Assembly: GCA_002841295.1 (NCBI GenBank)
Contig: PHEU01000020.1
Span: forward strand, 1 to 54,156
Direction: 5' to 3'
Length of the DNA: 54,156 nucleotides
From: Actinobacteria bacterium HGW-Actinobacteria-6
Lineage (GTDB): Bacteria > Actinomycetota > Coriobacteriia > Anaerosomatales > Anaerosomataceae
In this document: in pieces, positions 672 to 16,078 of the stretch
How the letters are laid out: every line of letters begins with the position of its first letter
Position numbering within the stretch: position 1 is the stretch's first letter
Program-made: the position numbers and the translations under genes
The notes under the pieces: model-generated
What the model saw: the letters and a program-made list of their open reading frames with translations, nothing else
Told to the model about the DNA's origin: nothing
The model's database searches: none

Positions 672-2342
672 GTGGCGGAAGCAGGTCAGCGGCTAGGACA
701 GCTCCTCCAGCGCGCAGGTGTCATTACTGAGCGTCAGCTGAACGATGCCCTTGAAGTGCACAAGGCGACCGCTAGTCCGATAGGCCGCGTCCTCGTCGAC
801 CTAGGCTATGCGACGCAAGGCTCGATTCTCGCCGTGATGGCCCGGCAAATTGGGATTCCGTACATCGATTTCTCCGAGAAGCAGCCCGATCCACACGCAA
901 TTTCGATCGTCCCTCGTGATTTGGCCGCGCGGTATACCCTGATGCCGGTAGAGTTCGACGATGACAACCACCTCGTCGTTGCGATGGCCGACCCGCAGAA
1001 CGTACTCGCACTCGATGACCTGCGAATCATTACTGGTTATGAGATTCGTCCGGCGATATCGACGAAAGACGACATCCTTGCGGCGATCGAGGACTACTAC
1101 AAGGTCGCGACGCACGTCGACACTGACTTCCTTACCGGCGACGAGGGACTCAACCTCGATCTCGAAGCGCTCACCGAAGTCTCCGACGAAGCTCCCATCG
1201 TCAAGCTGGTTAACTACATCATCAACAAGGCGGTCACCGACCGGGCTTCTGACATCCACATCGAGCCACAGGAGAAGGATCTCCGTGTCCGCTATCGCGT
1301 TGACGGCGTGCTTCACGAGGTCATGAGAAGTCCCAAGGCAACCCAGCAGGCAATCATAAGTCGGTTCAAGATCATGTCCGACATGGACATCGCCGAGAAC
1401 CGCAAACCTCAGGACGGGCATACAGCGCTCACAGTTGCGGGGCACAAGCTGGACTTCCGTGTCTCCACGCTTCCGACGGTGTACGGAGAGCGAATCGTTC
1501 TTCGTATTCTGCGCAAAGACAGCATCATGCTCCGACTTGAAGATCTTGGCTTCTTGCCGGGAACCCTCGAGCGCTTTGAGTCGTCATTTCGTAAGCCCTA
1601 TGGCGCCATCCTTGTAACCGGTCCGACTGGTTCCGGCAAGTCGACCACCTTGTATGGTGCTGTGAACGTTCTCAACGATCCCGGCAAACATATCCTGACT
1701 GCCGAGGACCCGGTCGAGTACCGATTGCCTGGCGTCAACCAGATTCAGACCAATGCTCGAGCCGGCCTGACGTTCGCGAGGGCCCTCCGGTCGTTCCTGC
1801 GTTGTTCGCCCGACATCATTCTTGTCGGCGAGATCCGCGACCAGGAGACCGCCAAGATTGCAATTGAGTCCGCCCTCACGGGACACCTCGTGCTGTCCAC
1901 CCTGCACACGAACGACGCCCCTGGCGCTGTTACTCGCCTCACTGAAATGGGCGTTGAGCCTTTCTTGGTCGCGTCGGCCGTGGATTGCGTGTTGGCGCAG
2001 AGACTAGCACGCAGGTTGTGTTCGGAGTGCAAGGAGGAGTACGTTCCCATGGAGCAGGCTCTTCTGGACGCGGGATACGATCCCGAGAACCTTCCGGAGA
2101 AGCTCTTTCGCCCGGTGGGATGTAAGAAGTGCGGGGGAACCGGTTACAGAGGCAGAATGGGCCTTCACGAGGTTATGCTTGTGAGCGAGGAGATTGGGGA
2201 TCTCACCGTCAAAGAGGCTACTGCTGACGAAATCAAGCAAATGGCGGTAGCTCAGGGCATGCTCACGCTCAAGCAGGACGGGCTCGAGAAGGTACGCATG
2301 GGGATGACGTCAATTGAGGAGATCATGCGGGTCGTCGCCTAG
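672..2342 (+). CDS. pilB: Type IV pilus assembly ATPase PilB (GspE family)
   Basis: PilB is the cytoplasmic hexameric ATPase that powers pilus extension. The 556-residue protein has an N-terminal MshEN-type domain (about residues 5-150, with repeated RLGQLL and PIGRVL elements, a fold known to bind c-di-GMP in relatives). A linker follows, then the GspE ATPase core with Walker A GPTGSGKST at about 317 and the Asp box and Walker B region ILVGEIRDQET with the His box STLHTNDA. Two CxxC pairs (about 450 and 483) form the zinc site typical of PilB/GspE. The GTG start is preceded by GGGAG seven bases upstream. It opens a same-strand run pilB-pilT-pilC-pilA-pilD. The preceding 111-base gap holds only a weak TACGAT hexamer at 598 as a possible -10. 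Confidence 0.97.
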   Translation: MAEAGQRLGQLLQRAGVITERQLNDALEVHKATASPIGRVLVDLGYATQGSILAVMARQIGIPYIDFSEKQPDPHAISIVPRDLAARYTLMPVEFDDDNHLVVAMADPQNVLALDDLRIITGYEIRPAISTKDDILAAIEDYYKVATHVDTDFLTGDEGLNLDLEALTEVSDEAPIVKLVNYIINKAVTDRASDIHIEPQEKDLRVRYRVDGVLHEVMRSPKATQQAIISRFKIMSDMDIAENRKPQDGHTALTVAGHKLDFRVSTLPTVYGERIVLRILRKDSIMLRLEDLGFLPGTLERFESSFRKPYGAILVTGPTGSGKSTTLYGAVNVLNDPGKHILTAEDPVEYRLPGVNQIQTNARAGLTFARALRSFLRCSPDIILVGEIRDQETAKIAIESALTGHLVLSTLHTNDAPGAVTRLTEMGVEPFLVASAVDCVLAQRLARRLCSECKEEYVPMEQALLDAGYDPENLPEKLFRPVGCKKCGGTGYRGRMGLHEVMLVSEEIGDLTVKEATADEIKQMAVAQGMLTLKQDGLEKVRMGMTSIEEIMRVVA

Positions 2343-2390
2343 GTCTTGCGTTGAGGTACTGCCGCTAGTTCTCGGGGAGGGGTGCGGCCA

Positions 2391-3455
2391 GTGGTGGACT
2401 TGAACGAACTACTTGCGAAGCTCGTGGAGTTGAACGGCTCCGACCTGCATCTCACAGTTGGTATGCCGCCGGTCATGCGGATAAATGGGCTACTCGTCCC
2501 AACCGACAATCCACGTTTGACGCCGCGCGATACCAAAGAGATGGTCTACGCCATTCTGCGCCAAGAGCAACGAGAGAAGCTTGAGCGTGAGTGGGAGTTC
2601 GACTTCGCGTATGCGTTGCCCGGGGTAGCGAGATTCCGGGTGAACGGGTACTTCCAGAGAGATAGCCTTGGCGCGGCATTTCGTCACATCCCAGTGGGTA
2701 TCAAGCCATTCGATGAACTGGGACTCCCAAAGATCCTTCCTGAGTTGTGCAAGAAGCCGAGAGGCTTCGTGTTGGTCACCGGACCCACCGGATCTGGGAA
2801 GTCCACAACTCTTGCCTCGATGCTTGACTACGTGAACTCCACTCAGGAGCTCCACATCATCACGATCGAGGATCCTATCGAGTATCTGCATCAGCACCGC
2901 AAGTCGGTCATCAATCAGCGTGAAGTGGGGGCTGATACACACAGCTTCTCAAGCGCTCTCAAGTACATTCTCCGCCAAGATCCTGATGTGATCATGATCG
3001 GGGAGATGCGCGACCTCGAGACCGTAGCCGCTGCTCTAACAGCTGCCGAGACGGGGCACCTCGTGTTCGCGACTCTCCACACGCAAGACGCAGCGCAGAC
3101 AATCGATCGCGTGATTGATGTGTTCCCTCCGTACCAGCAACAACAGGTTCGCATACAGTTGGCCGGAACGCTTCAGGGCATCGTCAGCCAGCAGCTGCTC
3201 CCGACCGCTGACGGCGCGAGTCGGATCGTTGCCTGTGAGGTGCTTATTCCGACGTCCGGAATACGCAACATGATTCGAGAGGGCAAGACGCATCAGCTCA
3301 TGAGCGCGATGCAGGCAGGGCAGCAGTATGGTATGGTCACGATGGATCAGAGCCTTGCGGATCTTCATAAGCGAGGGCTTGTGACTCTGGACTACGCTCT
3401 TCAGAGAGCTATCGATCCGAACGTGCTTCGCGCACTGCTGGGTCATGCGCCGTAG
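2391..3455 (+). CDS. pilT: Type IV pilus retraction ATPase PilT
   Basis: PilT drives pilus depolymerisation and twitching. The protein opens with the family's DLNELL and SDLHLTVG elements and has Walker A GPTGSGKSTT near residue 131. It also has the Walker B region VIMIGEMRDLET, the His box ATLHTQDA, and SGIRNMIREGK near residue 290, a variant of the AIRNLIRE motif needed for retraction in known PilT proteins. It lacks the zinc CxxC pairs of PilB, as expected. Possible GTG starts lie at 2382, 2391 and 2394. I chose 2391 because GGAGG at 2376-2380 sits ten bases before it and only one base before 2382. The gene is 48 bases after pilB and 24 before pilC. Confidence 0.96.
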   Translation: MVDLNELLAKLVELNGSDLHLTVGMPPVMRINGLLVPTDNPRLTPRDTKEMVYAILRQEQREKLEREWEFDFAYALPGVARFRVNGYFQRDSLGAAFRHIPVGIKPFDELGLPKILPELCKKPRGFVLVTGPTGSGKSTTLASMLDYVNSTQELHIITIEDPIEYLHQHRKSVINQREVGADTHSFSSALKYILRQDPDVIMIGEMRDLETVAAALTAAETGHLVFATLHTQDAAQTIDRVIDVFPPYQQQQVRIQLAGTLQGIVSQQLLPTADGASRIVACEVLIPTSGIRNMIREGKTHQLMSAMQAGQQYGMVTMDQSLADLHKRGLVTLDYALQRAIDPNVLRALLGHAP

Positions 3456-3479
3456 GTAGGTCAGAAAGAAGGGGGCCTC

Positions 3480-4697
3480 GTGGCCACTACTGTCACCTTC
3501 AAGTACAGCGTTCGCGATAAGGCGGGCAAGGTCGTCACCGGCAAACTTGAGGGCGAGAGCCGAGAGGCTGTCGCGTCAAAGTTGCGGCAGATGGGCTACA
3601 TCATCCTCGATTTGAATGAGGACAGGTTTGCCGCGCTGAGCAAGATCCAATTCGGCACGACCATCAAGATGAAGGACATCACGATCTTCGCGCGCCAGTT
3701 CGCGACGATGATCAATGCGGGTCTCTCGCTGACCAAGTGCCTGAGCATTCTTGGCGGGCAGTCTGAGAGCAAGGAACTTCGTGAGGTCATCGGGCAAGTC
3801 GGGCGAGACGTGGAAGCGGGCCAGTCGCTTTCTGAGGCGATGGCAAAACACCCCAAGCCGTTCCCGCCGATTTTCATCAACATGGTTCGCGCCGGCGAGA
3901 CTGGCGGTGTCCTCGATGAGGTCCTACTGCGTGTAGCAGACCACTTCGAGCGCGACGCGTCACTGAAGGCAAAGATCAAGTCCGCGATGACGTACCCGGT
4001 CGCCATGGGATCGCTTGTCCTGATCGTCTTGGTAGCGATGATGGTTTTCGTTGTTCCGACGTTTCAGAAGATGTTCGCCGATATGGGCGGAACACTTCCG
4101 CTCCCAACCCAGATTCTCGTCTCGATTTCCGATGGTGTGCGCGGATGGCCCGGAGTCATCACTCTGGTAGCCAGCATCGGCTCGTACATCGCATTCAAGT
4201 TCTGGGTCGGCACCGAGTCCGGTCGGTTCATTTGGGACGGCATCAAGCTCAGACTGCCTGTGGTTGGTGGCATGGTTCGGAAGCTGGCTCTTGCTAGGTT
4301 CACGAGAACGTTCGGCACGCTGGTCGCTGCCGGAGTGCCGATTCTCTCGGCTCTGGATATTGTCTCAGAGACAGCCGGCAATGAAGTCGTTGCTCGGGCT
4401 GTGAAGAAGGTGCGCTCGGCTATCAAAGAGGGCGAGACCATCGCCAAGCCCCTGGGAGAGTCGCCGGTCTTTCCCTCGATGCTGGTTCAGATGATTGCAG
4501 TCGGCGAGGAGACCGGTGCCCTTGATGCGATGCTTTCCAAGATCGCGGACTTCTACGATGAGGAAGTCTCGACGGCAGTCGATGGCCTCACATCACTTAT
4601 CGAGCCGCTCATGATGGCGACTCTGGGTGTCATCGTCGGTGGTATCGTCATCGCGCTGTATATGCCGATGTTTCAGGTCATCACGCTCGTCAAGTGA
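3480..4697 (+). CDS. pilC: Type IV pilus inner-membrane platform protein PilC
   Basis: PilC is the integral membrane platform that couples the PilB and PilT motors to the growing pilus. The 405-residue protein has the two tandem T2SS-F (GspF) domains of the family, at about residues 70-190 and 275-395. Each carries the FARQFATMINAG / FTRTFGTLVAAG type opening and a matching GETGG/GEETG element. Three hydrophobic segments are visible (about 170-195, 220-240 and the C-terminal 370-400). The GTG start has an AAAGAAGGGG purine stretch just upstream. It follows pilT closely and precedes the major pilin. Confidence 0.96.
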   Translation: MATTVTFKYSVRDKAGKVVTGKLEGESREAVASKLRQMGYIILDLNEDRFAALSKIQFGTTIKMKDITIFARQFATMINAGLSLTKCLSILGGQSESKELREVIGQVGRDVEAGQSLSEAMAKHPKPFPPIFINMVRAGETGGVLDEVLLRVADHFERDASLKAKIKSAMTYPVAMGSLVLIVLVAMMVFVVPTFQKMFADMGGTLPLPTQILVSISDGVRGWPGVITLVASIGSYIAFKFWVGTESGRFIWDGIKLRLPVVGGMVRKLALARFTRTFGTLVAAGVPILSALDIVSETAGNEVVARAVKKVRSAIKEGETIAKPLGESPVFPSMLVQMIAVGEETGALDAMLSKIADFYDEEVSTAVDGLTSLIEPLMMATLGVIVGGIVIALYMPMFQVITLVK

Positions 4698-4810
4698 CGA
4701 GTCACACAGTTTTCCTAATGTTTTGCTAAAGCTGGGCCAAAGCACGCCGATACACAACTTGTAGGCCAGTGGGGGACGTGGTCCCCCGGAAACCAAGGAG
4801 GTGGGCATCC

Positions 4811-5218
4811 ATGCGGATGTTCAAGAAGGATGAGGGCTTTACCCTCGTCGAGCTCATGGTCGTCGTACTTATTATCGGTATTCTTGTTGCTATCGCGATC
4901 CCGGTCTTCAACTCAGCGTCTGAAAGTGCTCGGCTTCGCACCTGCCAGTCGAACCAGCGCACAATTGAAGGTGCTGTTCAGCAGTACCTGGCCTCGAACC
5001 CGACTCTCACGTGGGCTTCGTCCGTGATCAACACCACCAACACTCTGACTTCTGGCGCGGCGCCGTACATCAAGACCGCTCCCACCTGCCCGAGCGCGGT
5101 GGCGGGGACCAACTTCTACGGTGTTAATGCCAGCGGTACCGTAACTGCTGACAACCTTGCCACCGGTGGCACAGCTCCTGCCACCTGGACCACGACCACG
5201 GGTCACACGCACTTCTAA
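4811..5218 (+). CDS. pilA: Type IV major pilin (PilA-like)
   Basis: This is the likely main structural subunit of the pilus. It has a short charged leader ending in Gly9, then FTLVELMVVVLIIGILVAIA, the class III signal and hydrophobic spine; Glu14 is the conserved Glu5 of the mature protein. Cleavage after Gly9 would be by the PilD encoded next door. The mature chain is about 126 residues, with a Thr/Ala-rich globular part and two cysteines (in RTCQSN and APTCPS) that could form a disulphide. The ATG at 4811 follows AAGGAGG with nine bases of spacing; an upstream in-frame start at 4769 has no such site and would give an over-long leader. A strong hairpin just after the stop separates it from pilD, a usual way to let pilin mRNA exceed the rest. 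Confidence 0.93.
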   Translation: MRMFKKDEGFTLVELMVVVLIIGILVAIAIPVFNSASESARLRTCQSNQRTIEGAVQQYLASNPTLTWASSVINTTNTLTSGAAPYIKTAPTCPSAVAGTNFYGVNASGTVTADNLATGGTAPATWTTTTGHTHF

Positions 5219-5239
5219 GTCGATTCGATCTTCTTGAGC

Positions 5240-5276
5240 AAGGGCCGTCGGCATGTGCCGGCGGCCCTTAGCGTTT
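5240..5276 (+). terminator. Hairpin terminator after the pilin gene
   Basis: A 14-base arm at 5240-5253 and its partner at 5256-5269 match except for one G-T wobble, giving a long GC-rich stem starting 21 bases after the pilin stop. The following tract is only weakly T-rich (GCGTTTCC), so termination may be partial. It lies before the pilD promoter-like element. Confidence 0.75.
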
Positions 5277-5293
5277 CCTGCGGTCTTGTGAAC

Positions 5294-5302
5294 TGCTACC
5301 CT
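5294..5302 (+). promoter_or_regulatory. Extended -10 element before pilD
   Basis: TGCTACCCT matches the extended -10 pattern TGnTAnnnT and sits 34 bases before the pilD start, after the pilin terminator. No good -35 is visible, which extended -10 promoters can tolerate. The same pattern recurs before aroC, steA, murE, dxs and pilM in this window. Confidence 0.4.
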
Positions 5303-5335
5303 GTCGGAGTCAGATATCTCGGGAGGTATCACTTC

Positions 5336-6172
5336 GTGATCGTTATCCCTGATTGGTACTTTCAACTTTCTGTAGGACTCTTTGGGCTGCTCTTTGGGAG
5401 CCTTGCGAATGTCATCATCTGGCGCGTTCCTCGCGGCGAGTCAATCGTCTCTCCTGGCTCGCATTGTCCGTCGTGCGGGCGCGAGATTCGCTGGTACGAC
5501 AACGTTCCGATCATATCTTGGTTCGTTCTTCGTGCGCGGTGCAGGGCATGTGGGTCTCAGATTCCCGTCAGGTACCCGGTTGTTGAAACGATTTCCGGGC
5601 TGCTGTGGCTGCTTGCGGCGCTCCTCTGGGGGATGACGTTTCGTACCCTCTTCGGTATAGCCCTCTTCTACCTCCTGTTGGTGCTGACGTACATCGACCT
5701 TGATCACTTGCGGCTTCCCAATCCGATTGTCGCGACCTTGGCCGGAGTCGGGCTTGTCGGCACCGCAGCCTCTCAGCTGACGGGCGTACCCGTACTTCCT
5801 CTGTTCGAGGGAGCTGGACTTCTTGCAAACCCCGCGGTATATGCCGTTGTCGGCGTGGTAATCGGACTCGGAGTGAGCGCCATTATGGCGGGGACCTACG
5901 CGCTCATTCGAAAGACAGCGGGGCTCGGGATGGGGGATATCAAGCTGCTTGCGGTTCTCGGAATCTACTACGGACCGTATGTGCTCATGGTTCTTCTGAT
6001 TGGGAGTATCATCGGTGCCGTTGTAGGTGGAGTACTGATGGTCGGCAAGAAGGACTCAGACGAGCCAGCCCGAATCCCGTTCGGGCCATTCCTTGCGATT
6101 GCTGGCGTTCTTGTTGCCGCGTGGGGGCCGACGATATGGGCTTGGTACATGGGGATTGCTCACCTGGGATAG
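5336..6172 (+). CDS. pilD: Prepilin leader peptidase / N-methyltransferase PilD
   Basis: PilD cleaves prepilin leaders after glycine and N-methylates the new N-terminus; it is an aspartic protease of the A24 family in the membrane. The N-terminal methyltransferase domain shows the two zinc-binding CxxC pairs (HCPSCGREI near 43 and RCRACG near 68). The protease domain shows the catalytic aspartates in YIDLDH (near 120) and GMGDIK (near 200). About seven to eight hydrophobic segments fill the rest. The GTG start at 5336 has GGGAGG nine bases upstream; a longer frame from 5234 would run through the terminator hairpin and is rejected. Its substrates are the pilin and the three minor pilins encoded around it. 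Confidence 0.95.
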   Translation: MIVIPDWYFQLSVGLFGLLFGSLANVIIWRVPRGESIVSPGSHCPSCGREIRWYDNVPIISWFVLRARCRACGSQIPVRYPVVETISGLLWLLAALLWGMTFRTLFGIALFYLLLVLTYIDLDHLRLPNPIVATLAGVGLVGTAASQLTGVPVLPLFEGAGLLANPAVYAVVGVVIGLGVSAIMAGTYALIRKTAGLGMGDIKLLAVLGIYYGPYVLMVLLIGSIIGAVVGGVLMVGKKDSDEPARIPFGPFLAIAGVLVAAWGPTIWAWYMGIAHLG

Positions 6173-6336: not shown

Positions 6337-7902
6337 GTGAGGAAGATGATCCACACGATAGGCAAGGCAATTCGCCGAGACGACGGCATGTCGATCCTCG
6401 AGATCATGATCGCGGCCGTCATCCTGTTTATCATACTGACTGGCGTGCTCGGTCTAGTGGGGACGACCACACTGATGGGCGTCGATGCCAAGCAGCGCAA
6501 CGTCATGGTGAACGCGCTCAACGCGTATGTTGAGAAGGTCCAATCGCTGCCGTTCGCCTCCGTGGCGCTCACAACAGGGGGCGGCGCACTCGCCTCAGAG
6601 GAGACGACGACGGTTGGGGAGTTCACGGTCACCATCCGGCCAACCATTGCCGCTGGAAGCAACGACTCTCTCAAGAGCCTCACTGTGGTCATCGAGGTCA
6701 CCGCTCCCGGTCGCCGGAGTACGTCTTTCACGACGACGGTGCCCATACGTGACAGGGCACAGTTCCTCACGCAGGCGAATCGGACGCCCGAAACCGACCC
6801 GACCATCGCGTTCAATGATGCCTACACACCCGCTCAAGGCGCAGTGGTCTGGGGTACTTCGTGTACGGGCGCGACCGGGGTGCTCAAGATTGCCGCAGAT
6901 GCCACGGCCTCGGATGGCAGGCTTGTTAATGCCGTCTCGTTCTGGATTGACGACAGTTACTACGCCAAGGACTCCGCTGACGAGATTGCGTCATGGAGTC
7001 CCGCTTCGCAGACGTTCAGTGTCTCCGATTTCGTGTGGAACACGCTTCAGACAGAAGAGGTACTACAGGGCGACGGATCGTATCTTGCCGTTCCGATTAT
7101 CGCCGATGGTATGCGCTCGGTGGTTGCTCGTGTTGAGGATGACGAACAGATTGCAGTATTCACGGTGCGGCAACTTCTTGTTGATAACTACGCTCCAGGC
7201 ATACCGACAATCGACGGCACTACGACCGTCATCGCTGCGACTTCCATCACCAACACTTCGGCGACGCTCACATGGCCAGTTGCGAACGACGGCACCACGC
7301 CTGCGGATCACTATGAGGTTCGTTTGTTCAGACACCCGCTTGGTGACACTGGCCCGATGAATCCCTTTGAGCACTGGCCTGAGGTTTCAGTCGGAACGCC
7401 GACGGAGAATTCGCTCGCACTCACATCGCTCACGGCGTTCAGCCGGTACTACCCGGTGGTGCGTGCGTTGAGTCCGCGCAATCTCGCATCGGAGTACACC
7501 ACGGGCGCGCCCCTCTTCGTGACGCGTCCGCTCATCACTGGAACCTACAAGATAGAATCACCCAAGGTCGCTGGCACCGACCCGTATGTGTTCACATCGA
7601 CTCTGACTTGCTCCGTGCCAACGTTCCCGGCTTCAAACATCACCTATAAGTGGTATCGAGTGGATCCCACGAATCCGGGCGGCATCGAGGTCGTGGGAAC
7701 CGGCCAGACACTGACGGCCGATGTGTACTCGATACAGATGCCGAGAAGCACGGATCCTGCTCCTCCGGTTAAGTACTACTGTCGGGTGACATTCACGCCG
7801 CTCGGTGTGGCTGGCGGGCCGTCTGTCGTCTTGTCGAACACCGTCGTGACAACCGCGACGGGCGAAGTCGCCACGACTGCCTATGGCGTAGGGACGTGGT
7901 AG
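6337..7902 (+). CDS. Large PilV-like minor pilin with FN3- and Ig-like domains
   Basis: The N-terminus has a charged leader and the prepilin site G/MSILEIMIAAVILFIIL, with Met at mature position 1 and the conserved Glu at +5, so it should be processed by PilD and enter the pilus. At 521 residues it is far larger than a typical minor pilin. After a beta-rich middle part, residues about 290-395 resemble a fibronectin type III domain (NTSATLTWPVAN, HYEVRLFR, FSRYYPVVRAL). The C-terminal 110 residues look Ig-like, with paired cysteines in LTCSV and YYCRV and the KWYR core. A tip adhesin role is inferred from this layout. The GTG at 6337 is used; ATG at 6346 is an alternative. Confidence 0.75.
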   Translation: MRKMIHTIGKAIRRDDGMSILEIMIAAVILFIILTGVLGLVGTTTLMGVDAKQRNVMVNALNAYVEKVQSLPFASVALTTGGGALASEETTTVGEFTVTIRPTIAAGSNDSLKSLTVVIEVTAPGRRSTSFTTTVPIRDRAQFLTQANRTPETDPTIAFNDAYTPAQGAVVWGTSCTGATGVLKIAADATASDGRLVNAVSFWIDDSYYAKDSADEIASWSPASQTFSVSDFVWNTLQTEEVLQGDGSYLAVPIIADGMRSVVARVEDDEQIAVFTVRQLLVDNYAPGIPTIDGTTTVIAATSITNTSATLTWPVANDGTTPADHYEVRLFRHPLGDTGPMNPFEHWPEVSVGTPTENSLALTSLTAFSRYYPVVRALSPRNLASEYTTGAPLFVTRPLITGTYKIESPKVAGTDPYVFTSTLTCSVPTFPASNITYKWYRVDPTNPGGIEVVGTGQTLTADVYSIQMPRSTDPAPPVKYYCRVTFTPLGVAGGPSVVLSNTVVTTATGEVATTAYGVGTW

Positions 7903-7904
7903 GC

Positions 7905-8462
7905 ATGACCGCACGGACGCGACATGACGAAGGATTCACGCTCACGGAACTTATGGTCGTCGTGACTCTGCTCACCGTTATCCTTGGCGTTGCGTATCTC
8001 GGCTTCGACGTTGTACGCAATGGCAGCAATCTGAGCGACCGAATGGCCTACACCAGCCGAGAGGTTGGTTTTCCGCTCGATTATATGGAGCGGATACTTA
8101 TCCAGAACTACGGCTTCGACAACACGACCACCCCTACCAACTACAAAGTTACGGTGCTGACGGATCGTGACAACGATGACCACTCGGAGAGGTACATCTT
8201 CGAGGCTACCAGCGCAGGCACGCTGCGAGTCTTGTCCCTTGAAGAGCCTGAGACTGATTTAAAACCGTATGTGCTGTCGACCAAGAACAGTAACGTTGCG
8301 CAGGGCAAGTCGCTCTTCCGGTACTACGATGCGAACCTTACTGAGATCACGAACATGGGCAACGTCAGTAGCCAGGCTCGTAGCATGACGATGACGATCG
8401 TGACGACGTATGACGGACAGTCATTCTCCGATACGCGGCGGGTTTACTTCCGAAATCGGTAA
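7905..8462 (+). CDS. Prepilin-like minor pilin (PulG/PilW type)
   Basis: The short leader ends in Gly and is followed by FTLTELMVVVTLLTVILG, a class III prepilin signal with Glu at +5, then a hydrophobic helix and a roughly 150-residue soluble domain with no motif I can name. The protein of about 185 residues lies directly behind the large PilV-like gene (its ATG is two bases after that stop) and 24 bases before the next gene, so the three are likely co-translated. Position and size suit a PilW- or pseudopilin-like component of a tip complex. I chose ATG 7905 because AGGGA lies ten bases upstream; GTG 7896 would overlap the preceding gene. Confidence 0.8.
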   Translation: MTARTRHDEGFTLTELMVVVTLLTVILGVAYLGFDVVRNGSNLSDRMAYTSREVGFPLDYMERILIQNYGFDNTTTPTNYKVTVLTDRDNDDHSERYIFEATSAGTLRVLSLEEPETDLKPYVLSTKNSNVAQGKSLFRYYDANLTEITNMGNVSSQARSMTMTIVTTYDGQSFSDTRRVYFRNR

Positions 8463-8486
8463 ACGAAACACCAGGAGGTGTGCTTG

Positions 8487-10067
8487 ATGAACGCGAAGAT
8501 GCGCAGAATGCTCTCAGATGAGAGCGGCGTGGCGCTCATCACGGTGATTGGCGTGATGGTTGTCATCACGATTCTCGCAATCGGATCGTTCGTGCTGGCA
8601 CAGCAGACGTTACACGAGTCGAAGAAGATCGAGGATCAGACGAAGGCGTTTCGGTCAGCTAGTGGTGGGCTGGACATAGTGCTCACGACGTTCTCCGATG
8701 AGTCGACCGCCACTGACTTCCCGGTGTCGGGCTCCACACAGGATGGTTCTTACACGGTCACCCTCGAGGATCTAGGCGGGAGTGAGTACCGCCTGACTTC
8801 CACAGGCATCGGTACAGATGGCAGCGAAGAGAGGGTCAAGCAGCAGTTCTACTACATGAACCTGTGGAAGATGAACTTCGCCGGAACCGGCCCTCAATCC
8901 CTTATCAGTGGATCAGGCGGACTTGCTGGTACGTCCAACATCATCGGTCCCTTCTACATGAAGGGTAACCTTCCAATCGGGAACAACATGTCGTGCCTCG
9001 AAGGACCGTTCTTCGTCAAGGGTGGCAATATCACTGTAGGTTCCAGCGGGTCACTCGGGACGTCGAGCAAGTACGTCAAGGTGTACTGCGACGGCACCGG
9101 CAACCCGGCTGTTCCTGCGAACAACACGCAGGGCGGTGCCGGCGGGGTCTTTGTGACTTCAGTCTCACGCTCGGTTCCCGATATCACGTTGCCCACGATC
9201 GACGACGAGATGATGCTTCAGTACGCTTCGAAGGCGCAGGCGGAGTCGGTAGATAACCTGCTCGGAACACCAGAGAAGAACTTCGGCGCCAACCTGGAGA
9301 CCAGCAATGGCCAGGCGACCGACTACAGCATCATGAAGCCTCCCAGCACGACAACGTACACACGTGCGATGGCGCAGGCGACGCCGACGAACAGCAATTA
9401 CAAGTTCATAGGCAGTGCCGACGGTGTCATCTCGGCGCGAGGTGCGGGGACAACGGCGCTTACTATTGGTGGAAGGACATTCGGTGCGTGGGGCTCCGTA
9501 GTCACCACGAATGGCGTGTCGCTTGCCGCCGGGCCAGCTGGTGCCAACTACACACTGGCGAACGCATACGACGATTTTGCCTACGACAATGTGAACAAGC
9601 GCCTGTACATCTCCGGGACCGTGTTTGTAGATGGGCCGGTGACGATCGCTGAGAACATGACGTACGTCGGCAACGGAAGCATCGTCGCAAACGGTCCGAT
9701 CTATATCAACGGCACGCTCAAGCCATACGGCACGAACACTCAGGGCGAGCTGAACCAGTGGGCGCTTGGACTCGTCACGCCGGTTGACATGTATGTCAAC
9801 TTCACGAGCAACAACAACTACGCAAACAAGACAGCCGATGAAATCCGAGCGATTTCGCCAGACTTGGCCGGAGCGTTCTTCTGCCAGGGGACCGTGCACT
9901 TCGGCAACAACCCGCTTGTTCGCGGGTCGGTCATCGCTGGGAAGCTCGACTCCGGTGGTCCGAACATGTGTCTGGTCACTAACCCGATACTACCTACATA
10001 CTTGCCGGACTCGCTTCCGGGTGTTGACAAAGGGCTTCTCATGCCAGGATTGTGGACCCGTGGGTAG
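8487..10067 (+). CDS. PilX-like pilus assembly protein with long repetitive beta domain
   Basis: Residues near the start (ESGVALITVIGVMVVITILA) match the PilX-type N-terminus: a Gly before a hydrophobic helix, without the usual Glu at +5, as often seen in the PilX/GspK family. The rest of the 526-residue protein is Gly/Ser/Asn/Thr-rich. Its C-terminal half has short repeats of the style GTVFVDGPVTI, GSIVANGPIYI and GTVHFGNNPLV that suggest a beta-helix, comparable to bactofilin-like folds. It follows two prepilin-like genes and precedes pilM. ATG 8487 has CAGGAGGT about seven bases before it, better than GTG 8478. The function is inferred as a minor, possibly tip-located or surface-exposed, pilus component. 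Confidence 0.7.
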   Translation: MNAKMRRMLSDESGVALITVIGVMVVITILAIGSFVLAQQTLHESKKIEDQTKAFRSASGGLDIVLTTFSDESTATDFPVSGSTQDGSYTVTLEDLGGSEYRLTSTGIGTDGSEERVKQQFYYMNLWKMNFAGTGPQSLISGSGGLAGTSNIIGPFYMKGNLPIGNNMSCLEGPFFVKGGNITVGSSGSLGTSSKYVKVYCDGTGNPAVPANNTQGGAGGVFVTSVSRSVPDITLPTIDDEMMLQYASKAQAESVDNLLGTPEKNFGANLETSNGQATDYSIMKPPSTTTYTRAMAQATPTNSNYKFIGSADGVISARGAGTTALTIGGRTFGAWGSVVTTNGVSLAAGPAGANYTLANAYDDFAYDNVNKRLYISGTVFVDGPVTIAENMTYVGNGSIVANGPIYINGTLKPYGTNTQGELNQWALGLVTPVDMYVNFTSNNNYANKTADEIRAISPDLAGAFFCQGTVHFGNNPLVRGSVIAGKLDSGGPNMCLVTNPILPTYLPDSLPGVDKGLLMPGLWTRG

Positions 10068-10240: not shown

Positions 10241-11362
10241 TTGGGCTCGCTCTCCTTCGGCAGCAGTTCGTCGACAGTTGGCCTGGATATCGGAACCGAC
10301 CATGTGCGTGCCGTGCAGCTACGGCCCGCTGGCGCTGGTTTTGCGCTCACGGGTTATGGTGCGGTCGAAGTGCCCATGGGTGCGGTAGTCGAGGGCGAGA
10401 TTGTCGATATTGATGCCGTAACATCAGTTATACGCGAGGTCTGGCGTCGTTCCGGCATGCGGGGCAAGGACGTCTCTATCGGCGTGTCTAACCAGAAGGT
10501 TATCGTACGTCTGATTGACCTTCCGTTCATGGAGCGCGCGGAACTCGTCGGCGCCATTCAATATCAGGCGCAGGACTACATCCCGATGGCTATCGAGGAG
10601 TCGATTCTCGACTTCCAAATCATCGGCGACTATATGACGCCGAGCGACGAGCACATGATGGAAGTGCTGCTTGTGGCCGCGCATCGGGACATGATCAGCT
10701 CAACCGTTGCTGCCGTTGAGGGTGCAGGGCTGAGACTCAGTCAAATCGACGTGTCCTCGTTCGCAATCGTCCGATCGCTCATGGGACCTCATGGCATGTC
10801 CGATCTGGATGAATCTGGGTTTGCTACCGGTATCGTCCACATCTCATCAGGCATTACGAACATCGCGGTCGTCGAGAAGGGCGTTCCGCGGTTCAATCGC
10901 ATATCCTCGCTTGCAGGTAATCAATTCACGCAGGCGGTGGCTAACGTTCTCAACTTGACGTTCGACGAGGCGGAGCGTTTGAAGATTGCTGTTGGCCTAC
11001 CAGATATCGAGGGTGGAGCCTCTCAAGCTCTTCCTGACGTTGACCCTGCGATGGCTCCGATCGTCCAGGATTCACTGGAGCGCGAGGTCAATAAGTTCAT
11101 CGCTGAGGTTCGACGTTCACTCGATTATTACTTGACGCAGACATCGCAGGTTCGCACCATCCAGCGGATTCTTCTGACGGGGAGCGGTGCGCAGCTGAAG
11201 AACCTCGCAGGCTACCTCGAGAAGGGTCTGCAGGCGCAGGTTGTCATTGGAGATCCTCTCGCTCGGGTTCAGGTTCCCGCCAACCTCCAGCAGCAGGTGT
11301 TCGCCGATCGCATGGGTTGTGCAACCGCGATTGGCCTGGCGATGGGGGGGATTGAGCAATGA
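10241..11362 (+). CDS. pilM: Type IV pilus assembly protein PilM (actin-like ATPase)
   Basis: PilM is a cytoplasmic actin/FtsA-fold protein that binds the N-terminus of PilN and links the motor to the alignment complex. The 373-residue protein shows the first phosphate-binding loop GLDIGTDHVRAVQL, the YQAQDYIPM region typical of PilM, and a late nucleotide-binding loop ILLTGSGAQLKNL. The start is a TTG at 10241, supported by AAGGAGG six bases upstream; no ATG or GTG fits. It overlaps pilN by four bases and heads the pilM-pilN-pilO-pilP-like run. Confidence 0.93.
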   Translation: MGSLSFGSSSSTVGLDIGTDHVRAVQLRPAGAGFALTGYGAVEVPMGAVVEGEIVDIDAVTSVIREVWRRSGMRGKDVSIGVSNQKVIVRLIDLPFMERAELVGAIQYQAQDYIPMAIEESILDFQIIGDYMTPSDEHMMEVLLVAAHRDMISSTVAAVEGAGLRLSQIDVSSFAIVRSLMGPHGMSDLDESGFATGIVHISSGITNIAVVEKGVPRFNRISSLAGNQFTQAVANVLNLTFDEAERLKIAVGLPDIEGGASQALPDVDPAMAPIVQDSLEREVNKFIAEVRRSLDYYLTQTSQVRTIQRILLTGSGAQLKNLAGYLEKGLQAQVVIGDPLARVQVPANLQQQVFADRMGCATAIGLAMGGIEQ

Positions 11363-11955
11363 TGCGAATCAACCTTCTGCCCCCCGAGATACTCGAGAAG
11401 CGAAAGAGCGAACAGCGACTTGTCTATGTCGTCCTCGTTGCTGTGCTCGTCGTGATCGTCCTCGCGGGTGTGTTTGGATTCGCGAATCTACAGCTGAGCG
11501 AGAAGAATAAGCAGGTTGCAGCGCTTGAGCAAGACTTGGCTGAAAGGCAGACTCAAGCGCAAACGTTGGTCGTGTTCGAGTTGAATGCCGATGAGCTCGC
11601 GCGCCGAAAGGCGATTGCTGAGACCGCGCTTGCTGCGCGGATCAACTGGTCTCAGTTGTACGACGAGCTTTCGCTCGTCATGCCGACTGATATGTGGGTG
11701 ACAGTGATTGTTACTGACCAGACCGCCGGATTGCAGCTCGATGGCTACGCCGTGGACAGTGCCACCGACTCGCCGGATCTTGGGCACAAGTCAATCGCGA
11801 AGTTGCTCGTTCGGCTTGCTGATTTGGACCAACTCCAAGATGTGTGGCTCACGAACGCAGCCAAGACCACGCTGGCCGAGTCTTCTGCGATTCAATTCAG
11901 TGTTACCGCAGGCGTCGATGCGTCCATGTCCACGTCTTCGAGCGCCGGGAACTGA
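11359..11955 (+). CDS. pilN: Type IV pilus assembly protein PilN
   Basis: PilN is a bitopic membrane protein whose cytoplasmic tail docks in PilM and whose extracytoplasmic part pairs with PilO. The N-terminus MRINLLPPEI is the signature PilM-binding peptide. One transmembrane helix follows (about residues 21-43), then a coiled-coil-like stretch (about 47-75) and a ferredoxin-like domain to residue 198. The ATG at 11359 overlaps the pilM stop (ATGA), which implies translational coupling; a second ATG follows directly at 11362. Confidence 0.92.
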   Translation: MMRINLLPPEILEKRKSEQRLVYVVLVAVLVVIVLAGVFGFANLQLSEKNKQVAALEQDLAERQTQAQTLVVFELNADELARRKAIAETALAARINWSQLYDELSLVMPTDMWVTVIVTDQTAGLQLDGYAVDSATDSPDLGHKSIAKLLVRLADLDQLQDVWLTNAAKTTLAESSAIQFSVTAGVDASMSTSSSAGN

Positions 11956-11964
11956 GGTGGCAAG

Positions 11965-12609
11965 ATGAATCGAGTCTCAGCGCAGACACAGATGATTATC
12001 GCCGGTGTCGTCGTCGTATTGATCGTGGTCGCGGCGCTCTTCCTCGGCATACTGCCGACGTTTGAGAAGGCGGGCTCGGCCGGCACGCGTATCAACGAAT
12101 TGACCGCCAGCATTCAGGCGGAGCAGTCGGTGGTGGATCGTCGCCTGAGTTACAAGTCACAGTCTGCACAGACTGAGGTTGAATTGATCAGGGTAGCCGG
12201 CGAGGTTCCGGAAACTCCGGACCTGCCTTCGCTTATCATCAACTTGCAGGATACTGCCAATGACGCAGGTCTTGAATTCGCGCAAATCAGTCCTGAGGCA
12301 CCGAATGCGATCGTTGGTGCCGATGGACTACCGGCCGGCTACAGCTCGCTTCCGATCGTCGTCAGAGTCAAAGGCAAGTGGGCTGACGTCATCGAGTATG
12401 TTCGGCTGCTAGGCAAGTACACACGGGGCGTTCGAATCACGAATGCGACCATGACCTATGTCAGTGCGACCGAAAACACAGATGGGTACGTTGAAGCGAA
12501 CATCAAACTTGAGGTCTATACCATGTCCGTGATCAACGTGAGCCAGTCTGTCCCCGCCGTTCCGTCTGCGCCGGCAACGCCGTCCGCAGACGCGCAGCCC
12601 TCGCAGTAG
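11965..12609 (+). CDS. pilO: Type IV pilus assembly protein PilO
   Basis: PilO partners PilN in the membrane alignment complex. The 214-residue protein has one N-terminal transmembrane helix (about residues 8-30), a predicted coiled coil (about 35-75) and a globular ferredoxin-like domain with the PilO-like GKWADVIEYVRLLGKYTRGVR region. A Pro/Ala-rich tail of about 25 residues follows. It starts nine bases after pilN and ends 18 bases before the next gene. The assignment rests on position and layout plus weak family resemblance, as PilO sequences are poorly conserved. Confidence 0.85.
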   Translation: MNRVSAQTQMIIAGVVVVLIVVAALFLGILPTFEKAGSAGTRINELTASIQAEQSVVDRRLSYKSQSAQTEVELIRVAGEVPETPDLPSLIINLQDTANDAGLEFAQISPEAPNAIVGADGLPAGYSSLPIVVRVKGKWADVIEYVRLLGKYTRGVRITNATMTYVSATENTDGYVEANIKLEVYTMSVINVSQSVPAVPSAPATPSADAQPSQ

Positions 12610-12627: not shown

Positions 12628-13227
12628 GTGTCCGAAGAGTTTGTAGTTCCCGGGACTGAGCAGCCTCCTGTGGTGGCCGCTGAAGTGTCGTCGGCCAAGA
12701 AGACCAACAAGGGGCTACTCGTCGCGCTTGGAGCAGTGGCCGTTCTGGCGATAATCGCAGCGATTGTTGTGCTGCTCGTGTTACCGCTGTTTACGGTTGT
12801 CGACGAAGTCGAGGTACGGGTACCCGAGCAGGGTGCCCCGCAGAATCCGGTTGTCACTTCTGAAGAAATCGAGTCTACCGAGGCTGCGGACAGAGTCACC
12901 AATGATGAGGTCTTCACATTCCGCGATATCTTCAAGCCGTTGCTTGGGGCAGTAACGGTTGGAACAACCACTGCCACCGAGAGCACAACTGAAACGGTTG
13001 AGATTTCCGAGTACGCTGCTGGCACCTTGTATTTGACCGCAGTCGGCAGCGAGAACGGTGAGCAATTCGCGAGTTTCGTTTGGAATGGCGAGGATTATGT
13101 GCTCGGCGAAGGCGACATCATCGATGGCACACCCTGGAAAGTACTCGATATCCGGACGAGTGATGTCGTGATGCTCTATGGTGACCAGCAGGTGGTTCTC
13201 TCTGTCGGTCAAGGTATCAGCAAGTAG
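12628..13227 (+). CDS. PilP-like extracytoplasmic pilus protein
   Basis: The 199-residue protein has a short cytoplasmic N-terminus, one transmembrane helix (about residues 29-54), an acidic Thr/Glu-rich linker and a C-terminal beta domain. The domain is preceded by VFTFRDIFKPLL, reminiscent of the RDPFxPL motif of PilP. The end, with GEGDIIDGTPWKVLDI and VVLSVGQG, resembles the HQ/GspC-like fold of PilP. In diderms PilP contacts the PilQ secretin; no secretin gene is present here, so this protein would complete a PilMNO complex under a thick wall. The GTG start has GGAAGGGA nine bases upstream. It is the last gene before a terminator. The PilP name is tentative. Confidence 0.6.
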   Translation: MSEEFVVPGTEQPPVVAAEVSSAKKTNKGLLVALGAVAVLAIIAAIVVLLVLPLFTVVDEVEVRVPEQGAPQNPVVTSEEIESTEAADRVTNDEVFTFRDIFKPLLGAVTVGTTTATESTTETVEISEYAAGTLYLTAVGSENGEQFASFVWNGEDYVLGEGDIIDGTPWKVLDIRTSDVVMLYGDQQVVLSVGQGISK

Positions 13228-13334: not shown

Positions 13335-14486
13335 ATGCGCTACACGACCGCCGGGGAATCACATGGACGCGCTTTGGTAACGATTGTTACCGATGTTCCA
13401 GCTGGAATTCTCTTGGATGGCGCCCGCATCGACGCTGATCTTGCTAGGCGTCAGGGCGGCTATGGGCGCGGTGGCCGGATGAAGATCGAGACGGACCGAG
13501 CGACGATTCTCTCGGGCGTTCGTTTTGGTCGCACTATCGGCACGCCAGTGGCTTTGACCATCGGCAATCGTGACTGGGACAACTGGACCGATGTCATGTC
13601 GGTATGGGGTGACCCCGTCGAGTCGGCCCGAGTGACAGCCCCTCGCCCCGGGCACGCTGATCTCGCAGGTATTCAGAAGACTGGTTCTCGGGATGTTCGA
13701 GACATTCTTGAGCGCGCGAGTGCACGGGAGACCGCTGCAAGGGTCGCCGCAGGCGCACTCGGAAAGGCGCTCCTGCGTGAACTCGGAGTTTCAGTCTCTT
13801 CATATGTTTCGCGTATCGGCGATGTCGCTCTGGATCCTGCGTTTGACGTATCTCAAGTCGACGTCGCGGCCGTTGAAGCCAGTGATGTGCGCTGCCCGGA
13901 CGAGACTGTCGCCTCAAGAATGCGGGCAGCGATTGATGACGCGCGCGATGCAGGAGAGAGCCTCGGTGGTGTGTTCGTTGTGACTGTCAGCGGTCTTGTG
14001 CCGGGACTTGGAAGCTATGCGCAGGCCGACCGACGGCTGGATGCTCGGCTCGGTGCGGCTGTTCTCTCGATACCCGCTATCAAGGGCGTGGAGTTTGGAG
14101 ACGGCTTCGCGCTTGCGGGAACGGCCGGATCCCTTGCTCATGATGCGATTCGCTACGAGGCCGGCCTCGGCTATGTTCGTGACACAAACCATGCGGGTGG
14201 CCTTGAGGGCGGAATGACGAATGGGGAAACGCTCGTTGTCCGTGCGGCGATGAAACCTATTCCCACGCTGATGACTCCGCTGGCAAGCGTGGACATCGAC
14301 TCTCACGACGCTGTTGATGCGTCGCGTGAGCGCTCCGATGTGTGCGCCGTGCCTGCTGCGGCAGTCGTTGCTGAAGCCGAGGTGGCGCTCGTGCTAGCGA
14401 CCGCATATATGGAGAAGTTCGGCGGAGACGCCGTTTGTGACATGAAGGTCGCGCTAGCCGCCTACGCTGATAGGCTATCGACGTGA
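13335..14486 (+). CDS. aroC: Chorismate synthase
   Basis: AroC makes chorismate from 5-enolpyruvylshikimate-3-phosphate by anti-1,4-elimination, using reduced FMN. The 383-residue protein has the N-terminal TAGESHGRAL signature with the active-site His, the TDRATILSGVRFGRTIG region, the ERASARETAARVAAGA motif, and the C-terminal HDAVDASRERSDVCAVPAAA segment. The length matches the Gram-positive form, which has extra loops relative to E. coli. The ATG at 13335 follows GAGAGG by eight bases. It opens an operon of chorismate genes and its stop overlaps the start of aroKB. Confidence 0.97.
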   Translation: MRYTTAGESHGRALVTIVTDVPAGILLDGARIDADLARRQGGYGRGGRMKIETDRATILSGVRFGRTIGTPVALTIGNRDWDNWTDVMSVWGDPVESARVTAPRPGHADLAGIQKTGSRDVRDILERASARETAARVAAGALGKALLRELGVSVSSYVSRIGDVALDPAFDVSQVDVAAVEASDVRCPDETVASRMRAAIDDARDAGESLGGVFVVTVSGLVPGLGSYAQADRRLDARLGAAVLSIPAIKGVEFGDGFALAGTAGSLAHDAIRYEAGLGYVRDTNHAGGLEGGMTNGETLVVRAAMKPIPTLMTPLASVDIDSHDAVDASRERSDVCAVPAAAVVAEAEVALVLATAYMEKFGGDAVCDMKVALAAYADRLST

Positions 14487-16078
14487 GCCACGTACTTCTC
14501 ATCGGTTTCATGGGAGCGGGGAAGTCCCGAGTAGGGGCTGCGCTTGCTGCGCGACTCGACCAGAAGTTCGTTGATCTCGACACGCTGATTGAGACGCGAG
14601 AAGGCATGTCTATTCCTGAGCTTTTTACGAGCGGCGAGGATGTGTTCCGAGACGCCGAGCATGAGGCGCTGCAATCGCTTATCGATGTACCGGACAGCGT
14701 TATCGCCTGCGGCGGTGGAATCGTCGTGCGCGGGGAGAATCGCGCCTTGCTCGGTCAGCTTGGACGCGTGGTCTATCTGTCGGTCTCCGCTGCCGAGGCG
14801 CTCGCCCGCATCGGCGACACCAGTGGCAGGCCACTCCTTGCTGGAGACGGCGCTCGCCTTGCACCGCAGATACTGAATGCCCGGCTGTCCTTGTACCGCG
14901 CGGCAGCTGATTTCATCGTGGACACGAGTGGTCGCGATGTTTCTGAAGTGCTGAAGGAAGTCGTGAGCGTGCTCGATGCGGCTACTGTAGGCCGCGTGCT
15001 GCATGTAGATGCGGCCGCAGGTTACGACGTTCGTATCGGCCCCGGAGCACTCGGGGGGCTCGCTGAGACGGTCAAATCAGCTACAGGTGCTGGGAAGGTC
15101 GTCGTTGTAAGTGACACGAATGTCGCTCCGCTGTACGGGACGCGTGTGGTCGAGTCACTCAGCGCCGCTAGCATCGAAGCGGATCTTATCGTGATCGAGG
15201 CGGGGGAGCCATCGAAGGACTGGGAGACCGCCGGTAGACTGGTTTGCGAGTTGGCTGATCGCCGTCTCGGACGCGATGGGGCGGTTGTCGCTCTCGGCGG
15301 AGGTGTCGTCGGTGATATCGCTGGCTTCGCTGCAGCGGTGTATGTGCGCGGCATTCCAGTAGTGCAGGTCCCGACGACCCTCCTGGCGCAGGTTGACAGC
15401 TCTCTCGGCGGCAAGACGGGCGTGGACCTGCCCGCTGGCAAGAATCTCGCCGGCGCGTTCTGGCAGCCATCGGCTGTCGTCTCTGACACGACCGTGCTGG
15501 CTACGCTTCCCGATGCCGAGTGGACAAGTGGGCTCGTCGAGGTCGCGAAGTCGGCACTCCTGGCAGGCGAGGCCGAGACTGCGCAGCTGGAGTCTGCTGC
15601 GCGGCATCTGCTCATGCGGGATCATGTTGCTGTGCAAGACGCGGTTCTCATGGCCGCCGGATTCAAGGCATCAGTCGTTGGCGGTGATGAGCGTGAATCC
15701 GGAGATCGTGAGTGTCTCAATCTCGGCCATACGCTCGGTCATGCGATCGAGCGCGTGCTCGGCTACGGGGTCGTATCGCACGGTATCGCCGTCGCGGCCG
15801 GTATGCGGTTTGCGGCGCGACTGGCCGAGGATGTCTTTGGTGCGGCGCCGGAGCTGACGTCACGAACCGAAGCGCTCCTCGACGCTCTCGGTGCCACGTA
15901 CACAGTGCCGGCGGATGTTGCAGCTGAGACTTTGTTTGATGCGATGTTGAGTGACAAGAAGACACGTGGTGGTGTCATCCGGTTTGTACTCTTACGAGCG
16001 CCGGGTGACTGGGCCGTGGTTCCGGTAGAAGCTGCAGTGGTTATGCGGCACCTGGAGCGGTTGCTCCGGGCCGAGTAG
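14483..16078 (+). CDS. aroKB: Fused shikimate kinase / 3-dehydroquinate synthase
   Basis: One 531-residue chain carries two shikimate-pathway enzymes. Residues about 1-165 are shikimate kinase: P-loop GFMGAGKS at 8-15, the DLDTLIE shikimate-binding segment, the CGGGIV motif, and an RPLL lid. Residues about 175-525 are 3-dehydroquinate synthase: NAD-binding GGGVVGDIAGFAA, the QVPTTLLAQVDSS segment, the KTGVDL motif, and zinc-site residues in GHTLGHAIE and SHGIAVAAGM. Kinase and synthase act at steps 5 and 2, so they do not hand over directly. Similar aroKB fusions are known in other bacteria such as Thermotoga. The GTG start overlaps aroC by four bases. No stop or frameshift lies between the domains. 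Confidence 0.96.
   Translation: MSHVLLIGFMGAGKSRVGAALAARLDQKFVDLDTLIETREGMSIPELFTSGEDVFRDAEHEALQSLIDVPDSVIACGGGIVVRGENRALLGQLGRVVYLSVSAAEALARIGDTSGRPLLAGDGARLAPQILNARLSLYRAAADFIVDTSGRDVSEVLKEVVSVLDAATVGRVLHVDAAAGYDVRIGPGALGGLAETVKSATGAGKVVVVSDTNVAPLYGTRVVESLSAASIEADLIVIEAGEPSKDWETAGRLVCELADRRLGRDGAVVALGGGVVGDIAGFAAAVYVRGIPVVQVPTTLLAQVDSSLGGKTGVDLPAGKNLAGAFWQPSAVVSDTTVLATLPDAEWTSGLVEVAKSALLAGEAETAQLESAARHLLMRDHVAVQDAVLMAAGFKASVVGGDERESGDRECLNLGHTLGHAIERVLGYGVVSHGIAVAAGMRFAARLAEDVFGAAPELTSRTEALLDALGATYTVPADVAAETLFDAMLSDKKTRGGVIRFVLLRAPGDWAVVPVEAAVVMRHLERLLRAE

Follow-up and report, generated by a model that had tools for sequence, protein, structure and literature searches.

A modular minor prepilin with fibronectin type III and likely Ig-like modules in a monoderm-type pilus operon of Anaerosomatales, and a minor-pilin trio that may be exchanged as one cassette

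The window analysed here is a stretch of 54,156 nucleotides from Actinobacteria bacterium HGW-Actinobacteria-6 (contig PHEU01000020.1; order Anaerosomatales, class Coriobacteriia). It carries a type IV pilus operon whose genes, on the forward strand from pilB to the PilP-like gene, are arranged as pilB, pilT, pilC, a pilin, pilD, a modular prepilin, a 188-aa prepilin, a 529-aa prepilin, pilM, pilN, a pilO-like gene, a PilP-like gene and aroC. The pilB (672-2342), pilT (2382-3455) and pilC (3480-4697) block was recognised by Pfam (T2SSE, MshEN and T2SSF, over 672-4697). It is followed by a candidate major pilin (4769-5218; N_methyl E 1.7e-8) with a GspG/ComGC-like N-terminus and by the prepilin peptidase PilD (5234-6172), whose methylase and peptidase parts were both matched (A24_N_bact 5.2e-34, Peptidase_A24 8.8e-14). 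Beyond pilD lie three minor prepilin genes: the modular prepilin (6337-7902); a second of 188 aa (7896-8462; N_methyl E 7.3e-7), which overlaps the first by its GTG start and has an alternative ATG at 7905; and a third of 529 aa (8478-10067), a conserved neighbour as is the second, which is GspK-like (NCBIfam GspK N-terminal E 5.7e-4, far under the cut-off). In this last product threonine replaces glutamate at +5, such that the cleavage site reads G/VALIT. The operon continues with pilM (10241-11362; PilM_2 1.5e-58), pilN (11359-11955; PilN 1.6e-5), a pilO-like gene assigned by position (11965-12609) and a PilP-like gene (12628-13227; TIGR03021 E 8.8e-6, under the cut-off).

The assembly genes pilB, pilT, pilC, pilD, pilM and pilN occur here without a secretin, the composition of a monoderm type IVa pilus. 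A secretin was found in none of the 69 genomes of the order, whereas the same search was positive in 6 of 14 control genomes; the absence in 69/69 indicates a filament of the kind made by cells lacking an outer membrane. PilY1 gave no match in the 69 genomes, and since the controls gave no signal either, this result does not establish its absence. The PilP-like gene is present despite the lack of a secretin, the usual partner of PilP, in all 69 genomes. The pil operon is followed by aroC in the window (13335-16078) and in several relatives (L056-L063, L081, L082, L084-L086), genomes of other classes included, and the pil-aro neighbourhood also occurs in other bacteria. Some relatives carry two or three major-pilin-like genes in series (L079 at 2136 and 2625; L081 at 5053, 5596 and 6270), and in others pilT does not adjoin pilB (e.g. 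G012, G013, G017).

The modular prepilin gene is present as one copy in its own genome and encodes 521 aa from a GTG at 6337; an ATG at 6346 would give 518 aa. Its N-terminus reads RRDDG/MSILEIMIAAVILFIILTG, with Gly17 at -1, a hydrophobic stretch and Glu22 at +5, as in class III signals. The leader peptide (residues 1-17, 6337-6387) is predicted to be cleaved by PilD after Gly17; Pfam N_methyl matches residues 13-38 (E 0.0047, under the curated cut-off). In an alignment with 51 relatives, Gly17 and Glu22 are the only invariant columns, present in 51/51, confirming the prepilin signal proposed in a first-pass annotation of this reading frame. The leader precedes the long N-terminal pilin helix (residues 18-70, 6388-6546), the best conserved part of the protein, and a short segment (residues 71-143, 6547-6765; boundary set by inspection of the alignment) that, from its position and conservation and with no solved relative, probably constitutes the pilin's own head. 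The annotation had placed about 480 extra residues behind the signal. This was an overcount, and in place of a single extension of that length we find a head followed by three predicted beta-sandwich modules, which would span residues ~148-521, or about 375 residues.

The central module, a fibronectin type III (FN3) domain at residues 288-396 (7198-7524), can be assigned securely from the family. Domain profiles built from 37 relatives were compared with solved structures (A4, residues 148-288; A5, 286-398; A6, 394-521). Although the window protein alone stays below threshold (Pfam fn3 PF00041, residues 300-379, E 2e-4, scoring 21.9 bits where the cut-off is 25), profile A5 matched the single-domain FN3 structure of ROBO2, 1uem, with E 1.2e-9; its match to titin (E 9e-29) is a sum over many repeats. 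Two relatives from other classes exceed the PF00041 cut-off (L084, 33.2 bits; L085, 44.0 bits), and just 7 of 51 relatives give fn3 matches at E 0.1 or better. In the single-sequence Pfam scan of the window protein N_methyl, fn3 and Ig_2 all fell under their curated cut-offs, and a solved-structure search with the same single sequence gave no match.

The two modules flanking the FN3 domain are likely to adopt Ig-like folds. For the first (residues ~148-287, 6778-7197), which the annotation had missed, profile A4 matched the bacterial Ig-like structure 2yn3 (E 4.2e-4), which we take to be SiiE BIg domains, followed by 4l9d (0.03) and the PKD domain 6aem (0.05); these matches weakly support a BIg/PKD-like module. 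For the C-terminal module (residues 397-521, 7525-7899), the single-sequence Ig_2 match is at chance level (E 0.14), whereas profile A6 matched a cytokine receptor FN3 domain (E 0.003) and sybodies or nanobodies (~0.01). A model of residues 286-521 built from two sequences had a mean pLDDT of 58, mostly 60-84 over residues ~396-485. Its best Foldseek matches were FN3 tandems (E 2.5e-5, TM-scores only ~0.3), and VIA likewise returned an FN3 tandem (Z 9.1, 171 residues, 5.5 A). With the C-terminal part alone, VIA returned the Ig-like PECAM-1 (Z 8.2, 91 residues, rmsd 2.9 A). Because by the tool's own note a Z near 8 may reflect a common arrangement, we regard the Ig-like call as likely rather than proven, with moderate support from profile and fold. 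The full-length AlphaFold model, also from two sequences, was unusable (pLDDT 38). A tandem repeat of one domain was rejected, as profile comparison found no link between FN3 and the two flanking domains. The profile and structure searches thus returned FN3 and, likely, Ig-like folds where the annotation had allowed that neither might appear; its FN3 domain held, and its Ig-like C-terminus fared better with the family profile and the model than with the single sequence. With FN3, by the family profile, lying C-terminal to the pilin moiety as a non-pilus domain, the product fits the published modular-pilin class; neither a vWA nor a lectin module was found in it.

Conservation differs along the protein. 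Within the genus, identity is 89-92% in the helix, 60-70% in the other modules and 54-55% in the C-terminal domain, which is the least conserved part, leader aside. For within-genus pairs, dN/dS ranged from 0.02 to 0.29 over the parts where it was computable and was highest in the C-terminal domain; in pairs involving the window the modules gave 0.05-0.29 (2 of 15 values were not computable), and all of these values are rough because synonymous sites are almost saturated (pS 0.55-0.79). Hypervariability of the modules among close relatives, considered as a candidate, was not seen at dN/dS 0.05-0.29, and these estimates point to purifying rather than diversifying selection on the modules.

Queried with the window protein, 47 of 61 genomes drawn as relatives gave matches, as did 53 of 197 genomes of the class, all 53 of them within the window's order. 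Two alignments were prepared, A1 with 37 rows and A2 with 51, the latter adding 14 divergent relatives; both exclude duplicates or repeated stretches (L001, L003, L056-L063), as well as members that are truncated or short (L019, L039, L047). With profile A1, 62 of the 69 genomes of the order matched, many of the additional matches being short and covering only the pilin or FN3 part. Near-full-length relatives, defined as A1 matches from position <=12 to >=486, occur in 45 of the 69, in addition to one gene cut by a contig end (G025). Across the phylum sample, 137 of 296 genomes matched at E 0.001, mostly through the pilin helix alone, and long matches outside the order are few and come from other classes (e.g. 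G420, positions 10-472; G323, 4-424; G274, 7-461). The order pilin, pilD, modular prepilin, 188-aa prepilin, 529-aa prepilin is kept in relatives with contigs of sufficient extent, and the segment from pilM to aroC recurs where longer flanks were covered, in genomes of other classes too.

In every completely read cassette the three minor-pilin genes are adjacent and keep one order. They appear to behave as one cassette with two forms, type A with the Ig-FN3-Ig array and type B with CarboxypepD_reg-like repeats. Among 56 PilM-positive genomes, 45 have a near-full type A gene (cut in G025), and one further genome (G141) has a type A gene and no PilM match. The remaining 11 (G002, G041, G050, G054, G019, G051, G014, G040, G049, G029, G055) fall into several groups. 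Four have a contig end close to the pilD-pilM slot (G002, G041, G050, G054; in G050 judged by PilM position only). Two, G019 and G051, have in this slot a large prepilin that matches CarboxypepD_reg (1.8e-29 and 1.6e-16, respectively) instead of Ig-FN3-Ig; G019 shares genus group g9 with G012 and G025, both of which carry the Ig-FN3-Ig form. In four others type B lies elsewhere than in the slot (G014, G040, G049, G029): G014 has pilD adjoining pilM and its CarboxypepD_reg trio on another contig, and in G040 and G049 the trio follows aroC. G055 has an empty slot, and the search for a cassette gave none. Two members of the window's genus, G001 and G003, combine the Ig-FN3-Ig gene in the operon with a second trio of the CarboxypepD_reg type away from it (L090, 3465-6863, and L091, 4370-7771, respectively). 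That the CarboxypepD_reg relatives are unrelated prepilins was considered and is countered by their trio structure and by their occupation of the slot in G019 and G051. A type A-like trio in G059 (L047, 3071-6001) has a large prepilin of only ~227-269 aa, without Ig-FN3-Ig; this may reflect genuine loss or an error of assembly. The annotation had suggested asking whether the domains vary between close relatives: the type A array itself is conserved, and in some relatives the whole trio is swapped for one with other modules.

Trees of the partner pilins divide cleanly by cassette type, with a single A/B change in the K tree (42 rows, support 100) and in the J tree (43 rows, support 96). A core tree of PilM and PilC (30 rows, in which G420 is a long branch) requires four A/B changes, and a single B clade is rejected on it (AU p 1.3e-9); G019 adjoins G012 with full support, and PilM alone gives four changes as well. 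Each locus contributed one cassette to the trees, which excluded a second one of G059 (L092). Type A labels come from full or long A1 matches, except for G059C39, whose large prepilin matches only positions 12-139. Type B labels come from Pfam scans of the large prepilin, weakly so for G037, in all twelve B rows other than G134C67, which was labelled B without a scan and kept in the J tree, and dropped from the K tree as its row is not a K gene. Since the partner trees split by type and the core tree does not, the three genes are moved or lost together, independently of the machine. These data fit transfer and equally fit differential loss of a pair already present in an ancestor.

The best described counterpart is in Streptococcus sanguinis, where, in the accessible parts of the reports, large modular pilins and a partner lacking Glu5 form a tip complex, start assembly and present binding modules (PMC9934059, PMC8179133, PMC10191384); the tip-capping K subunit and PilA are described as lacking Glu5 (PMC9934059, PMC10191384). 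Its PilB (vWA) and PilC (Ig-like and lectin) are likewise large minor prepilins with Glu5, a short pilin moiety and C-terminal non-pilus modules; their monoderm T4aP operon encodes three minor pilins, and one partner lacks Glu5 (PMC8179133, PMC9934059). The present system differs in its Ig-FN3-Ig modules, without vWA or lectin, and in the order and sizes of the partners. The 529-aa product supplies the linked pilin without Glu5 expected of a tip cap. This anatomy fits the model published for S. sanguinis. We favour with good confidence a reading in which the 6337-7902 product is a minor pilin of the modular kind in a monoderm-type T4a pilus, most likely forming a tip complex with the 188-aa and GspK-like prepilins, as PilA, PilB and PilC do in that species. 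In such a model PilD would cleave after Gly17, the helix and short head would seat the protein in the filament, and the string of Ig-like, FN3 and Ig-like modules would project outward as a stalk, a ligand-binding part or both, while the complex of the three prepilins would start assembly and contact surfaces. The annotation had proposed adhesin-like domains at the pilus tip or along the shaft; adhesion and tip position, like PilD cleavage, are suggested here by analogy with published modular pilins.

FN3 and Ig-like domains are often mere spacers, and a possible, though less probable, reading is that the three modules form a passive stalk that braces the tip complex or crosses the thick cell wall, while another part, such as the 529-aa K-like pilin, does the binding. 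The purifying selection on the array, which is not diversified, would suit a stalk, as would S. sanguinis PilC, whose Ig-like module is, in the available text, without known function while its lectin binds (PMC9934059). Yet the C-terminal domain is the module that varies most within the genus, as an exposed face predicts, and in related cassettes the corresponding gene carries other modules, for which a simple stalk would have no need. We think it quite improbable that the protein instead serves as a pseudopilin-like subunit in a filament for secretion or DNA uptake. T2SS and Com filaments are built from the same parts, and the best NCBIfam N-terminal matches are ComGE-like, at chance level (E 0.11); the operon nonetheless includes pilT and pilM-pilN, and the missing secretin argues against a T2SS.

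Returning to the two cassette types, the chances are close to balanced, if slightly adverse, that the ancestor held both and that lineages lost one or the other rather than exchanging them. G001 and G003, which hold both, and G014, with its empty slot and a type B trio on another contig, suit such a history, whereas the type B trios sitting exactly between pilD and pilM in G019 and G051 imply local replacement at least. A comparable arrangement, as far as the available text goes, exists in Myxococcus xanthus, which has three minor pilin/PilY1 clusters, alternative minor-pilin units on one machine, one of them thought to be horizontally acquired; that system is diderm and combines four minor pilins with the non-pilin PilY1, whereas here there are three and the effector module is fused to the pilin (PMC13190605).

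The entry IPR003961 is one we take to denote FN3. Raynaud et al. (2021) catalogued >1,200 modular pilins, which they sorted into 264 architectures; those with IPR003961 and with PF13620 rank in the 15 commonest, and the combinations IPR012902-IPR003961 and IPR012902-PF13620 contain the same kinds of module as types A and B; their listing gives architectures only, and its accessible passages are silent on cassettes and on the window's lineage (PMC8179133). A 2019 review assigns the actinobacterial type IV pili that have been studied to the Tad/Flp type (PMC6916266). A literature search of partial coverage, on minor and modular pilins, FN3 or carboxypeptidase-like modules, transfer of tip clusters and pili of Actinobacteria, Coriobacteriia or OPB41, found no account of the A/B cassettes and no report of a minor pilin with FN3 in this lineage. 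What is new is the minor-pilin trio as one cassette in two forms, FN3 modular pilins having already been listed.

For the order as a whole, we put forward, as an evenly balanced proposal, that three genes form an exchangeable cassette for the pilus tip, Ig-FN3-Ig or CarboxypepD_reg-like, each form with its own partner pilins. The cassette would be swapped whole, in one slot of an otherwise fixed machine, and sometimes both forms would be kept. If this is true, lineages change what the pilus binds without altering the machine. Modular pilins have so far been mostly a list of architectures and one worked-out species. The A/B family offers a large natural series, in which a conserved monoderm operon and slot are combined with two module sets tied to their own partners, and makes it possible to test whether the tip modules set binding and whether minor pilins need to be swapped jointly for compatibility.
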